From the IMG/VR virus record IMGVR_UViG_3300036770_002533, positions 1-20,799 of that record: a stretch of DNA of 20,799 nucleotides; one strand, given 5' to 3'. The translations under genes were made by a program, and so were the position numbers. Each line of letters opens with the position of its first letter. The first letter of the stretch is position 1. The DNA is from a virus. The notes beneath the pieces are model-generated. The model searched no databases. It had not been told where the DNA came from and was given only the letters and a program-made list of their open reading frames with translations. Of this stretch, positions 3,137 through 9,790 are shown in pieces.

Positions 3137-4695
3137 TGGCAATTTTCGGCATCGGTCGCACTGGCGGTCTCAAGCGTCAACTTGAAGAAGCGCAACAGAA
3201 AAACAGCTATTTGAAGCGTGCTTACGCTGCAGCCCAGAACAACAGGCTGACTTCTGATTGGATCAGTCAGGCGACATCGGCTGATAGCGAAATTCGCGGC
3301 AGCATTCGGATGTTGCGCAATCGTGCCCGTCAACTGGTGCGCGATTCCGATTTTGCAAAGTCAGCGCTTCGTGCTGTACGAAACAATGTTGTCGGCACCG
3401 GCATCCGCATGCAGGCTCAAGTGCGCATGCAACGTGGCGGTCGTCTTGCTGATGAGATCAATCGCCGTATTGAAGAAGAGTGGGATCGTTGGACATCAGC
3501 AAAGCGGTGTCATTGTGGCGGCAAGCTGAGCTGGTATGACATCCAGCGCCTTTGTATCACCTCGATGCTTGAATCGGGCGAGGTGTTTGTTCGTTTCGTC
3601 AAGCAGCCGTTCGGCAACAGCAAAGTGCCGCTTGGCTTGGAAATCATCGAATCCGATCTACTGGATGATGATTACAACTCGATTGCCAAAAACGGCAACG
3701 AGATCCGCATGGGTGTTGAGATTGATAGCTGGGGTCGCCCTGTTGCCTATCACTTTTTTGATTACCACCCCGGTGATTATCAATTCAGTTATGCGCAGAA
3801 GGCTGCCAAACGTCGCGTTCGCATCCCAGCCGAAGACATCATTCATCTGTACACAATTGAGCGCCCCGGTCAAACACGTGGGATCAGCGCATTTGCAACA
3901 GCAATCATGCGCCTGCGCAATTTGAGCGGGTATGAGGAAGCTGAAATCGTCGCCGCCCGCGCCAGCAGCAGCATGATGGCATTTGTCAAGACACCAGATC
4001 AGGAGCTGTTTGAAGACGGCACCTTTGATCAGGAATCTGTTCTTGATTTCAGCCCCGGCAGCATCCGCAGGTTGGCGCCCGGTGAAGAGATGCAGTTTTT
4101 TACACCGAATCGCCCTGATGATGCGTTTACACCGTTTGTGCAGCAGATGTTGCGTGCTGTGGCGGCTGGTATTGGCTGCTCTTACACACAAGTAAGCAGT
4201 GATTTCTCACAGAGCAACTACAGCTCTTCTCGTCTTGAATTGCTTGAAACTCGCACGCATTACAAGACGCTGCAGCAATATTTGATCGAATCGCTGTGCG
4301 AAGAGGTCTATGAAAAGTGGCTTGAAATGGCAGTCATGGCTGGTGTACTTGACCTACCTGCGTTTGATAGCAATCCCGAACGCTACGAGGAGGCGAAATG
4401 GATTGCTCCGGCTGCGCAATTTGTTGATCCCCAGAAAGAAGCAGCAGCGTACAAAGAGTTGATTCGCAGCGGCATCATGACCCTGTCACAGGTCATTGCA
4501 TTGCATGGCGGTGATTTTGAAGATCAGATGCGCCAACGTCAGCATGAATTAGCCGTTGCTGATGAGCTTGGCATCATCCTTGATACTGATCCTTCTGCTG
4601 TATCAAATAATGGTGTAACGCAGCCCACCCCTGTACCACCTACCGAGCATCCGGTACAACATGGTGAAGAACCCGAGCTGGAAGACATAGACTGA
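3136..4695 (+). CDS. Portal protein, lambda gpB family
   Basis: This 519-aa protein forms the dodecameric ring at one capsid vertex through which DNA enters and leaves. The family pattern is clear: an N-terminal helix-rich segment, 'NNVVGTGIRMQ' near residue 85, then 'EEWDRWTSAKRCHCGGKLSWYDIQRL' split across the clip region, 'ESGEVFVRF', 'GLEIIESDLLDD', 'GVEIDSWGRPVAYHFF' and 'IPAEDIIHLY'. These match the phage_portal_2 (lambda family) signature order. Lambda gpB is 533 aa. The last 40 residues are Pro/Glu-rich and probably flexible. The start overlaps the previous stop (TAATG), with GAGG 8 bases upstream. It sits between the gpW-like gene and the protease-capsid gene, as in lambda. Confidence 0.93.
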   Translation: MAIFGIGRTGGLKRQLEEAQQKNSYLKRAYAAAQNNRLTSDWISQATSADSEIRGSIRMLRNRARQLVRDSDFAKSALRAVRNNVVGTGIRMQAQVRMQRGGRLADEINRRIEEEWDRWTSAKRCHCGGKLSWYDIQRLCITSMLESGEVFVRFVKQPFGNSKVPLGLEIIESDLLDDDYNSIAKNGNEIRMGVEIDSWGRPVAYHFFDYHPGDYQFSYAQKAAKRRVRIPAEDIIHLYTIERPGQTRGISAFATAIMRLRNLSGYEEAEIVAARASSSMMAFVKTPDQELFEDGTFDQESVLDFSPGSIRRLAPGEEMQFFTPNRPDDAFTPFVQQMLRAVAAGIGCSYTQVSSDFSQSNYSSSRLELLETRTHYKTLQQYLIESLCEEVYEKWLEMAVMAGVLDLPAFDSNPERYEEAKWIAPAAQFVDPQKEAAAYKELIRSGIMTLSQVIALHGGDFEDQMRQRQHELAVADELGIILDTDPSAVSNNGVTQPTPVPPTEHPVQHGEEPELEDID

Positions 4696-7076
4696 TGTCA
4701 AAGCCATTTGTTGAACTGATGAAACGCGAAGCGAAAGGTTTCGCGCCGACGCAGCCACAAAAGCGTTCTGCGCCTGAAATTGAAGTAGTCGAGGATGGGC
4801 GCCCCTATCCCAATGAGCATGCTGCTCGCCTGACCGAACCGGGTCAATACGACCGCATCCGTCGCGTCAACGATGAGTTTGGTGCCGGTATTGATGCGAT
4901 CTATGGCATCAAGGATGAAACTGCTGAACTGCAAGCAATTCGTTTTGATGCTGATCGGTTTACACCGGCTGAAGCTCGTCAATGGCTGAGCGAGCATGAT
5001 TACAGCCCGATTGAATTTGAAGAGGCAACTGGTGAACGCGAAGAAGAACGTGCGGCACCTGATGCATTGAAGGTTGGTGATTTCGTTGAATGGGACAGCA
5101 GCGGTGGCACTGCACGCGGCAAGATCACACGAATTGCACGCGAAGGTGTAATCGAAGTACCTGATTCTTCGTTTACTATTAATGCATCGGAGGAAGATCC
5201 TGCTGCATTGATTCGCGTGTATCGCCGCAACAGCGACAACGAATTTCAAGAGAGCGATACAGTCGTTGGTCATCGCTTCTCTGAATTGCGCAAGATCGCT
5301 GCACTGCGTTTCCTTGAGGGTGAAACGCACAAACGCGCACTGAGCACCGAATTCCGTGCAGATGCACAAGAGCGCACGCTTGAATTCCCGTTTGCTAGCG
5401 AAGCGCCTGTTGAGCGTTACTACGGCATGGAAGTGCTGAACATGGATGAAAAGTCCATGGATCTCACCCGCCTAAACGATGGTGCCCCGCTTCTGTATCA
5501 GCATGATGCTGATCGTATTGTTGGTGTAGTGCAAAAGGCATACATCAAAAACAAGCGTGCATACGCCAAGGTCAAGCTTGCAAATAATGAACTTGGTCGT
5601 GAAATGCAAGAGCTGATTAAAGATGGAATTATTCGTAATGTGAGCTTTGGATACAAAATTAATTCGATGGAAGCCGATGAGTCGACCTCACCAGTCACTT
5701 ATCGTGCGACCAACTACCAGCCCTTTGAGATTAGTTTGGTGACCGTGCCTGCTGATCAATCAGTGGGCATTGGTCGCGCCTTCTCTCATAATGAAGGCGT
5801 CAATACGGCGTCAGCCGGAGAACACAACCCCAACGGAGTTATCACCGTGGATCAACCCCTCAACGTTGAGGCTATCCGCGCTGAGGCTGTACAAGCCAAG
5901 GCGAAGGAAGCCGCTGAAATGATCGCCCTTGGTCAACGTACCAAGAACATCGAACTGGCTCAGGAGTTCATTGCTAACTCCCGTAGCCTCGATGAGCTTC
6001 GCACTGCCCTTCTCGAGAAGATGGGTGTTCAGGAGAAGCCCATCAATCCCAAGGATGCCGAAATCGGCATGTCTGATAAGGAGAAGCGTGACTTTTCCTT
6101 CATCCGTGCCATCAACGCTCTGGCACACCCCAACAACAAAGAAGCTCAGCGTGCTGCTGGTTTCGAATTTGAAGTCAGCCGTGCTGCTCAAGAAAAGAGC
6201 GGTAAGGAAGCTCGCGGCATCCTGATCCCTGCCGATGTGCTGGGTTACGGTCGTCGTGATCTGACCGTTGGTTCCGCTTCTGGCGGTGGTGATCTGGTTG
6301 CCACCGAACTGATGAGCGAGAGCTTCATCGACCTGCTCCGTAAGGCGCTGGTGCTGCAACAAGCTGGCGCCAACGTGATGACCGGTCTGCAGGGCATGGT
6401 TGCTATCCCCCGTCAATCGGGTGGTGCCACCACTTACCACGTTGCTGAATCCGGTTCGATCACCGAATCGCAGCTCACCGTGGATCAGGTGACCATGCAG
6501 CCCCGCACCATCGGCGCTCTGACTGATTACAGCCGTCGCCTGCTGCTGCAGTCCAGCATCGACATCGAAAACCTCGTTCGTCGTGACCTGGCTCAGCAAA
6601 TTGCCATCGAGGTGGAAAACCAAGCCATCAACGGCATTGGTTCTGGCTCCTACCCGCTGGGCTTCCTGAACGTAACCGGAATCAACACCGAATCTGGTTA
6701 CACCACGTTCGCTGATTATGTGAACGCTGAAGCCTCCCTGAGCACCGACAACGCTCTGCTGGGTAGCCTCGGTTATCTGATGAACTCCGCTCTGCGCGGC
6801 ACTCTGAAGACCACCGAAAAGGCGAGCAACACTGCTCAGTTCGTCTACGAAGCCGACAACACCATCAATGGTTATCCGGCTTATGTGTCCAACTCCATGC
6901 CGAACAACACTGCGGTGTTCGCTAACTTCAGCGACATCATGATCGGCTTCTGGAGCGGTCTGGACATCATGGTTGACCCTTACACCGGTTCCGCCTCCGG
7001 CACCGTGCGTGTTGTTGCCATGCAGGACTATGACGTGGCCATCCGTCATCCTGAGTCCATCTGCAAGATCTCCTGA
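4695..7076 (+). CDS. Prohead protease fused to HK97-fold major capsid protein
   Basis: One 793-codon frame with at least four parts. Residues ~38-115 form an N-terminal domain seen in some prohead proteases (EHAARL..PGQYDRIR, 'RFTPAEARQWLSEHDYSPI'). Residues ~125-178 resemble the Tudor-like DUF2945 family (VGDFVEWDSSGGTARGKI, 'PAALIRVY'). Residues ~215-360 are an HK97-type serine protease with candidate triad H270 (YQHD), S317 (VSFGYKI) and E345 (FEISLVTVPAD). Residues ~385-793 are scaffold plus capsid: a charged helical delta-like region to about 500, then 'GGGDLVATE', 'TESQLTVDQVTMQPRTIGA' and 'YPAYVSNSMP', typical of the HK97 fold. The protease should remove the scaffold and free the shell protein. 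Codon use changes sharply near 5815-5850 and an internal start is visible (see separate entry). The gene begins in a TGATG overlap with the portal gene. Confidence 0.92.
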   Translation: MSKPFVELMKREAKGFAPTQPQKRSAPEIEVVEDGRPYPNEHAARLTEPGQYDRIRRVNDEFGAGIDAIYGIKDETAELQAIRFDADRFTPAEARQWLSEHDYSPIEFEEATGEREEERAAPDALKVGDFVEWDSSGGTARGKITRIAREGVIEVPDSSFTINASEEDPAALIRVYRRNSDNEFQESDTVVGHRFSELRKIAALRFLEGETHKRALSTEFRADAQERTLEFPFASEAPVERYYGMEVLNMDEKSMDLTRLNDGAPLLYQHDADRIVGVVQKAYIKNKRAYAKVKLANNELGREMQELIKDGIIRNVSFGYKINSMEADESTSPVTYRATNYQPFEISLVTVPADQSVGIGRAFSHNEGVNTASAGEHNPNGVITVDQPLNVEAIRAEAVQAKAKEAAEMIALGQRTKNIELAQEFIANSRSLDELRTALLEKMGVQEKPINPKDAEIGMSDKEKRDFSFIRAINALAHPNNKEAQRAAGFEFEVSRAAQEKSGKEARGILIPADVLGYGRRDLTVGSASGGGDLVATELMSESFIDLLRKALVLQQAGANVMTGLQGMVAIPRQSGGATTYHVAESGSITESQLTVDQVTMQPRTIGALTDYSRRLLLQSSIDIENLVRRDLAQQIAIEVENQAINGIGSGSYPLGFLNVTGINTESGYTTFADYVNAEASLSTDNALLGSLGYLMNSALRGTLKTTEKASNTAQFVYEADNTINGYPAYVSNSMPNNTAVFANFSDIMIGFWSGLDIMVDPYTGSASGTVRVVAMQDYDVAIRHPESICKIS
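5835..5849 (+). promoter_or_regulatory. Candidate internal ribosome start for a separate scaffold-capsid protein
   Basis: GGAG at 5835-5838 lies 8 bases before an in-frame GTG at 5847-5849 (codon 385 of the fusion gene). Starting here would give a 409-aa protein holding only the scaffold and capsid parts, a normal size for an HK97-type capsid precursor (HK97 gp5 is 385 aa). Just here codon use turns to that of a highly expressed gene: by hand count no TTG, TTA or CTA leucine codons follow, while about five precede. A chance GGAG is possible, so this is a hypothesis with matching evidence. Confidence 0.5.
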
Positions 7077-7093: not shown

Positions 7094-7330
7094 ATGCGCA
7101 TTCAAATGCTGCGTAACACCATTGTTGATCTCAAGGAGGTCAAGGCTGGTGATTTCGTTGAAACCGATCAAAAATCAGCTTTGCTGTTGATTGGTATTCA
7201 GAAAGCCATTCCCGCTCCTGTTTCTCAGGAAGTAGTTGTCACGACTGAACCTGAACCTAAGGTTGAGTCAGATCCTGTAAAACCCGCTCCCAAACGGAGA
7301 AAGACCAATGATCCACAACCTCGGGTCTAA
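7094..7330 (+). CDS. Small head-region protein of unknown function
   Basis: A 78-aa protein. An ATG at 7076 exists in the overlap with the capsid stop and would add six residues, but AAGGAG at 7082-7087 sits 6 bases before the ATG at 7094, so I choose the latter. The N-terminal half reads 'MRIQMLRNTIVDLKEVKAGD', then 'LLLIGIQKA', a pattern I know from small proteins next to phage capsid genes. The C-terminal half is rich in Pro, Glu and Lys and ends basic (PKRRK), so it is probably disordered. No function is known to me; a head assembly or completion role is suggested only by position. The 3' end overlaps the next gene by 23 bases. Confidence 0.7.
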   Translation: MRIQMLRNTIVDLKEVKAGDFVETDQKSALLLIGIQKAIPAPVSQEVVVTTEPEPKVESDPVKPAPKRRKTNDPQPRV

Positions 7331-7697
7331 GACCTATCTCGCCAGCCTCCTTGGCGCTGATTCTCGCACCGCTACTGCTACCGGCACCGGCTTTGATCTC
7401 CAAGGCACCAATGATGCCGAGGGTGAAGCCATCGTGATCCTTGATTGCGAAGCTGGTAGTGGCACCACTCCTACCCTGAACGTCAAACTTCAGGATTCGG
7501 CTAACAACTCTGATTGGGCTGACATCACTGGTGCTACTTTCACCGAAGTGACCGATGCCGAAGCAGTGATCGAAAAGATCACGATTAACGCCAATGATGT
7601 GCGCCGTTATGTGCGTGCTGTTGGTACTCAGGCTGGCACTAACCCTGTGTTTGTGTATGGCGTGTCTCTTGTCTACGGCAAGAAGTACGGCAACTGA
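7308..7697 (+). CDS. Putative capsid decoration or stabilisation protein
   Basis: A 129-aa protein with no helices evident and a strongly beta character: 'AIVILDCEAGSGTTPTLNVK' , 'LQDSANNSDWADI' and 'VRRYVRAVGTQAGTNPVFVY'. This looks like a beta-sandwich/jelly-roll such as occurs in surface proteins of phage heads. Codon use is as biased as in the capsid half (no TTG, TTA or CTA leucine codons seen), suggesting a protein made in many copies. GGAG at 7296-7299 is 8 bases before the ATG. There is no gpD homologue in the window, so this protein is a candidate to fill that role. This is inference from position, codon use and fold pattern; I cannot name a family with certainty. Confidence 0.6.
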   Translation: MIHNLGSKTYLASLLGADSRTATATGTGFDLQGTNDAEGEAIVILDCEAGSGTTPTLNVKLQDSANNSDWADITGATFTEVTDAEAVIEKITINANDVRRYVRAVGTQAGTNPVFVYGVSLVYGKKYGN

Positions 7698-8736: not shown

Positions 8737-8889
8737 ATGGCTAAAATTCAAAAGGAAGTTCCCAATCCCGGAGTGGGCGGCAGTTACTTGTTTGACCCCA
8801 AGTCTGGGAAACTTACACTGATCACAGAATCCGCCGCTCCTACCACCGATGGCACTGACTCGGAAGAAGTTTCTGATTGCGAAGATTGA
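8737..8889 (+). CDS. 50-residue conserved small phage protein, function unknown
   Basis: ATG at 8737 to TGA at 8887-8889 encodes 50 residues beginning MAKIQKEVPNPGVGGSYLFD, then 'PKSGKLTLI', and an acidic tail (EEVSDCED). The 'NPGVGGSY.FDP..GK.TLI' core is one I recall from very small proteins near phage tail genes, so this is probably a real gene rather than chance. It fills the 116-base gap between the terminator and tube genes and overlaps the tube gene by 41 bases in another frame. Its translation would also couple the tube gene, which has no Shine-Dalgarno of its own. Role unknown. Confidence 0.7.
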   Translation: MAKIQKEVPNPGVGGSYLFDPKSGKLTLITESAAPTTDGTDSEEVSDCED

Positions 8890-9790
8890 ATCCAACTACG
8901 GGGTTGATCCCAGCCCTGTTGGTGGTTCTGACGCAATCCAAGTTACCAACCTTGAGGTAGCACCCATTGAGTCTGACAATGTTCAGGCTGCTGCTTATCA
9001 AGGTTTCATTGGCAACAGCACCCGTGGCACCTTGGTTGCCAACAAGCGAGTTAGCGTCACCTTTGATGTTGAGCTTGCTGGTTCTGGTACTGCTGGTACT
9101 GCGCCTGCATTTGGTCCACTGCTCAAATCTTGCGGTCTGAGCGAAACCACTGTTGCCGCCACCAGCGTTACCTATGCCGGTGTGAGCAGCAGCTTTGATT
9201 CTGCAACGCTGTATTGCTTCTACGACGGCACCCGTCACAAAATCACTGGCGCTCGCGGTACTGTCAGCTTCAACTTCTCTGCTGGTCAGTTTGCTACGGC
9301 AAGCTTCAACATGATCGGCATTTACAACGCCCCTGATGGCACTGCGCTGAGCGGCACCTTCACTGTTGCCAATCAGGCTGCTGCCATTGAGGTGAACGAC
9401 ACCAACATGACCACCGCCACCTTCCATGGTGTGACTGGTGCTCGCATCGAGTCGTTCGATCTGGCGCTAAACAACGAAGTGATTTACAAGGAGACCGCTT
9501 CCAGCCAAGAGGTTCTTATTACCAACCGTGCTCCTGGTGGCACTGCGGTGATTGAAGCTCCTGCTGTTGGCACCACCGATTACTTCGCCAAAGCTGCTGC
9601 TGTTACTACTGGCGCTACCACGTTGGTGCTGGGTGGCACTGCTGGCAACATCATCACTCTGGGTGCTGCTCAGACTGATATTACGGGAGTATCATACGGT
9701 GACACCAACGGTGTGATCTCGCTGTCCATGCCTTATTTGGCTCTGCCCACTACGGCTGGCAACGACGAAATCAGCCTTGCGTTCACCTGA
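8849..9790 (+). CDS. Major tail tube protein
   Basis: A 313-aa protein expected to stack as rings forming the tail tube. The opening 'MALTRKKFLIAKIESNYGVD' followed by 'IQVTNLEVAPIESDNVQ' is characteristic of the phage_tube_2 type of tube proteins, with 'RGTLVANKRVSVTFDVELAGSG' split over the next strands and 'GPLLKSCGLSET' around residue 90. The remainder is beta-rich and small-residue-rich. The last ~80 residues (after about 230) may be an extra surface domain, since lambda gpV also carries an Ig-like C-terminal domain; here I see no certain Ig signature. It lies between terminator and chaperone genes, the standard place. The chosen start gives the family's usual N-terminus despite the overlap with the 50-aa gene. 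Confidence 0.88.
   Translation: MALTRKKFLIAKIESNYGVDPSPVGGSDAIQVTNLEVAPIESDNVQAAAYQGFIGNSTRGTLVANKRVSVTFDVELAGSGTAGTAPAFGPLLKSCGLSETTVAATSVTYAGVSSSFDSATLYCFYDGTRHKITGARGTVSFNFSAGQFATASFNMIGIYNAPDGTALSGTFTVANQAAAIEVNDTNMTTATFHGVTGARIESFDLALNNEVIYKETASSQEVLITNRAPGGTAVIEAPAVGTTDYFAKAAAVTTGATTLVLGGTAGNIITLGAAQTDITGVSYGDTNGVISLSMPYLALPTTAGNDEISLAFT

Follow-up and report, generated by a model that had tools for sequence, protein, structure and literature searches.

Background

In phage lambda, the C/Nu3 region encodes a long form bearing a protease of the S49 type and, from an in-frame internal start, an abundant protease-free C-terminal product; P2 gpO, a nested protease/scaffold gene, is grouped with it. 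Herpesvirus UL26/UL26.5 also combines an upstream serine protease with an in-frame scaffold nested at the C-terminal end, obtained there by means of a separate transcript, the capsid protein being encoded by a separate gene. HK97 gp4/gp5 comprise an S78-type protease and a capsid precursor, the N-terminal delta domain of which is removed at maturation. Fused coat genes are known from Gifsy-2/ES18-type phages. In another phage cluster of Rhodobacter, RcC, capsid and protease are apparently fused (PMC8601537).

The gene described here belongs with the fused heads of phrog_617 (S-CBS1/3, S-LBS1, R4C, RcCronus, Mica, VP882 and phiHAP-1). They share its architecture, are homologous to it over the protease-delta-capsid region and carry, as it does, an ATG or GTG in the linker between protease and delta domain; they are annotated as a single long major capsid protein. 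In the database records examined, the internal start is not marked, and a literature search of open-licence papers found no published description of a start, nested or internal, within a gene of this fused kind.

An earlier note on this DNA, proposing an internal start in the head gene, had likened the locus to lambda C/Nu3. The likeness holds for the mode of nesting, a conserved and selected in-frame internal start lying within a protease-bearing gene, with the difference that here the capsid itself would be nested. It does not extend to homology, which would imply an S49 protease and a scaffold-only product, whereas this protease belongs to the S78 type and the putative nested product includes the whole Phage_capsid match. 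The latter feature also distinguishes the locus from UL26/UL26.5, with which it shares an upstream serine protease and would share C-terminal in-frame nesting. Protease and capsid precursor, separate genes in HK97, are here fused, with a putative nested start.

Results

Organization of the fused head gene

The window, i.e. the whole stretch of DNA analysed, is a 20.8-kb IMG/VR virus record. Its fused head gene (4695..7076, plus strand, as all features of the gene given below) encodes a protein of 793 aa, composed of an N-terminal region, an S78 protease, a linker, a delta/scaffold domain and an HK97-fold capsid. Pfam matches locate a Hva1/TUDOR domain (Hva1_TUDOR, residues 128-174, 5076-5216) in the N-terminal part, the prohead serine protease domain (Peptidase_S78) at residues 258-356 (5466..5762) and Phage_capsid at residues 531-792. 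The protein matches phrog_617 with an E-value of 4.1e-148 over residues 207-792, and the presence of S78 protease and HK97-fold capsid in a single reading frame, within a full-length match, places it in this fused protease-major capsid family. With about 44% identity, S-CBS1, S-CBS3 and S-LBS1, siphophages of cyanobacteria, are the closest isolates. The N-terminal region is shorter in some close relatives, e.g. in the homologues L061-L073.

In the predicted structure (mean pLDDT 76.5), the linker, residues 356-388 (5760..5858), is disordered, with pLDDT below 50; it is also hypervariable, and ends at the putative internal start, codon 385. The delta/scaffold domain that follows (residues 385-530, 5847..6284) is predicted to be helical, its first helix spanning residues 391-415, 6 residues past the internal start. 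A second disordered stretch, residues 519-543, surrounds the predicted maturation site, beyond which residues 531-793 (6285..7073) would form the mature HK97-fold major capsid protein; PDB entry 8gta_A aligns to residues 531-789. Within the otherwise variable linker, TCA GCC (codons 373-374, 5811..5816) is invariant, its nucleotides being identical in 79 out of 79 close relatives.

Conservation of the internal GTG in close relatives

The GTG at codon 385 (5847..5849) is preceded, with a spacer of 8 nt, by a Shine-Dalgarno (SD)-like GGAG (5835..5838), and initiation there would yield a product of 409 aa (5847..7076); these positions and counts agree with those of the earlier note. A lone GGAG-GTG in one sequence is weak proof, and it is rather its conservation that constitutes the proof. 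The note had named loss of both elements in close relatives retaining the fusion as a result that would speak against an internal start; in a set of 79 sequences, the window and 78 others from IMG/VR, the GTG is present in all and the GGAG in 78, the one close relative without it being L060.

The linker codons beside codon 385 vary freely within this set. Valine is always or nearly always found at 26 columns: 25 of them use two to four valine codons, and only codon 385 is always GTG. Synonymous diversity, evaluated in windows of 15 codons, reaches the minimum of the whole gene at about codons 381-399, and in the window starting at codon 385 is 0.21 of expectation. This comparison of sequences indicates that the GTG is selected as a codon, not merely as a residue. 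A second low of synonymous diversity is seen in the capsid part, at 6903-6932 (codons 737-746) and following.

The putative internal start across the fusion family

Six scans, together with isolate records, provided 397 homologous fusion genes, which were grouped into 155 clusters at 90% identity. The linkers were anchored directly on start codons, alignment columns shifting the Met/Val relative to Glu by 1-3 residues. Where the linker ends, just before the delta helix, 154 of the 155 clusters have an ATG (131 clusters) or a GTG (23 clusters) in the matching position; the sole exception, L358, has no start codon in its linker. All 395 assigned members fit ATG/GTG, one of them once a one-codon alignment shift had been corrected. 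The start is embedded in diverse motifs, among them PMEP, TMSEE, SDMNEK, PVEE and TVDQ. The copies checked individually (R4C, phiHAP-1, Murka, PPpW-3, and plasmid-borne copies from Klebsiella and Pseudomonas) all have ATG at the site, Met189 in the case of R4C, several of them with an SD-like sequence before it.

As the sites were anchored on start codons, the case for selection relies on independent tests: valine codon invariance, synonymous diversity, swaps along the tree, RNA folding, and the expectation for the linkers. Valine at the matching place is encoded by GTG throughout the family, and by no other valine codon, even in two clusters where GTG is otherwise rare for valine (6% and 16%). 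A tree of the downstream part requires at least 7 swaps between ATG and GTG, of which 6 cannot be avoided given the well-supported branches. From codon content, 117.8 linkers would be expected to contain an ATG or GTG and 81.7 an ATG; the numbers observed are 154 and 131. Binomial figures overstate the independence of the clusters, which are related to each other. The proposal of an internal start is thus supported, with the refinement that the start is a family-wide feature and not a peculiarity of this phage.

In the homologues L351 and L346 the linker is long and contains two candidate ATGs, of which the one farther upstream is accompanied by an SD-like sequence; two nested starts are thus possible there. 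In Roseobacter phage CRP-823 (L085, 1789-4717), the capsid gene is annotated as two overlapping genes, perhaps because of a frameshift; its relatives are not annotated in this way.

Codon usage along the gene

The earlier note had also described, from hand counts, an abrupt change of codon usage at the internal start, and the counts were confirmed. From codon 385 to 793, leucine is encoded by CTG (25), CTC (7) and CTT (3), and never by TTG, TTA or CTA, while in codons 1-384 it is mixed (CTG 9, CTT 5, TTG 4, CTC 1, CTA 1); the AAG/AAA ratio for lysine is 14/1 from codon 385 and 11/6 before. Synonymous codon usage was analyzed by using a model with one change-point, compared with a null obtained by shuffling synonymous codons within the gene. 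With the best change-point the log-likelihood rises by 75.0, compared with 28.2 ± 3.8 in the permuted genes (z 12.4). The second part begins at codon 374 (codons 373-382 lie within 3 log units), about 10 codons upstream of the GTG. No such step is seen in five other long genes of the window, coding for terminase, portal, tape-measure, tip and tail-fibre (z 0.2-2.2).

The effective number of codons falls from 48.9 in the protease half to 38.5 in the delta domain (385-530) and to 34.1 in the capsid (531-793); for contiguous stretches taken from other genes the average is about 50. Upstream codon usage is therefore ordinary, whereas the downstream part is the most biased gene of the window, which implies a much higher output downstream. 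Low values are found also for a 129-aa gene at 7308-7697 (38.5), possibly, as a guess, an abundant decoration protein, and for the gene at 8849-9790 (43.2), for which a tail tube may be guessed; both would fit codon bias as a mark of high-copy proteins. A 412-aa antisense open frame on the minus strand (5811-7049) spans the putative nested gene and ends at the TCA at 5811-5813. It is best regarded as a by-product, since its stops would need TTA, CTA or TCA on the plus strand, codons avoided by the capsid half.

In the family, the change-point, searched from the protease core onward, is significant in 60 clusters; in 41 of these it falls within 30 codons of the start, against 6.8 expected, and in none of the 60 within 30 codons of the beginning of the capsid fold, about 140 codons beyond the internal start. 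A domain boundary as the cause of the step was rejected on the latter result. In 149 of 154 clusters codon bias is greater past the start than before it; with the delta segment alone, and segments of equal length, the same holds for 148 of 154. As the delta domain is probably removed on maturation, the mature capsid fold cannot set this bias, while synthesis in bulk can. In the GC-rich relatives R4C, phiHAP-1, Murka and PPpW-3 a codon change-point was not detectable.

Initiation features and RNA folding

Predicted SD pairing at the site differs between types of relatives. It is strong in the Roseobacter type (mean -7.8 kcal/mol, against a gene mean of -2.9) and good in window-type genes (-5.9 kcal/mol), while the cyanophage type with PME or PVE at the start has no SD (mean -0.6 kcal/mol, short even of the gene average). 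A start led by GGAG, as put forward in the earlier note, is found in the window type, but many cyanophage-type relatives have an ATG or GTG without a Shine-Dalgarno sequence. Dependence on SD sequences is lower in cyanobacteria.

Of the RNA windows compared over 154 clusters, the one of 40 nt around the start shows the least structure (z +1.23 ± 0.06), and strong folding is seen some 45 nt downstream of it (z -1.61). This downstream structure has an energy of -14.8 kcal/mol, against -11.7 for synonymous permutations, and lies under the permuted mean in 85% of the clusters. In window-type genes it may correspond to a possible stem-loop at 5870..5912 (codons 392-406, about 20-65 nt past the start), which is more stable than its synonymous permutations and shows weak covariation: one of its pairs occurs in two compensatory states, maybe from a single event.

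Comparison with R4C and phi39:1

The mature R4C capsid protein (8gta) has 268 aa, corresponding to residues 362-629 of the 629-aa gene product, and by homology the first residue of its chain corresponds to residue 531. The R4C head is reported to contain 415 capsid copies with the HK97 fold, and the relevant passages of that report describe, for the virion, the capsid protein alone (PMC10276861). In Cellulophaga phage phi39:1, an unfused relative, the capsid has a gene of its own next to that of the protease, and the start of this gene lies no more than about 8 residues from the position homologous to codon 385. The putative nested product includes the delta domain (385-530), which would be removed later, and so would equal a whole capsid precursor of the HK97 type.

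Discussion

The 793-codon head gene very probably consists of two nested in-frame genes, the 409-aa form being the predominant product and the fusion a minor one, carrying the protease; this judgement is drawn from comparison of sequences. Ribosomes starting at 4695 would produce the chain of 793 aa, protease-linker-delta-capsid, while independent initiation at GTG 5847 would produce, in much larger amount, the delta-capsid chain of 409 aa, the source of most shell subunits. A few long chains may co-assemble with the short ones by way of their delta and capsid portions, thereby bringing the S78 protease into the procapsid. A cut by the protease at about residue 530/531 would then remove delta, together with protease and linker in the case of the long chains, so that about 263 aa remain as the mature subunit.

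A larger amount of capsid could likewise result from a separate transcript, starting from a promoter inside the protease region, on which the internal codon would be the first one available for initiation. The relatives without SD and the invariant upstream TCA GCC would suit such an arrangement, which we nevertheless regard as unlikely: the conserved elements are of the translation-start type, and the one match to a sigma-70 promoter, at 5764-5792, is no more than chance would give (1 found, 0.6 expected), so that this candidate was rejected. Moreover, a separate transcript would still require the internal start, and would alter nothing but the origin of the mRNA.

The internal start might instead be used for a minor product, with the fusion supplying most capsid subunits. 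GTG is usually a weaker start codon than ATG, its combination with GGAG makes a start of moderate strength, and the GGAG is lost in one close relative; the much higher downstream output, implied by the change from ordinary to most biased codon usage, makes this reading improbable.

That only the chain of 793 aa is made, as database records annotate it, with the Met or Val always found at the site and the nearby DNA kept for the sake of the protein (e.g. as a self-cleavage site) and the step due to fusion history or to selection for accuracy in the capsid, is highly improbable, because a protein constraint leaves unexplained why valine is always GTG while other invariant valine columns vary, as well as the dip in synonymous diversity and the open RNA exactly at the site, because the step matches the start, not the capsid fold, and takes in the delta domain, which would be discarded, and because 415 copies of 530 removable residues, by our estimate about 24 MDa, look excessive inside a T=7 procapsid.

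Returning to two nested genes, we hold it rather likely that throughout this widespread family an unannotated nested start makes the capsid precursor, that the minor fusion delivers the protease covalently, and that the ratio of the two forms is set by the strength of the start, perhaps with a contribution of the downstream stem-loop.

Conclusions

A nested start of this kind would explain how phages with a single-gene fusion could do without a protease for every shell subunit. It would also correct the way in which the major capsid protein is annotated in a large group of phages from marine, freshwater and other bacteria, including the structural model phage R4C. Nested genes may, moreover, be revealed from sequence alone, by combining steps in codon usage with the conservation of single codons.
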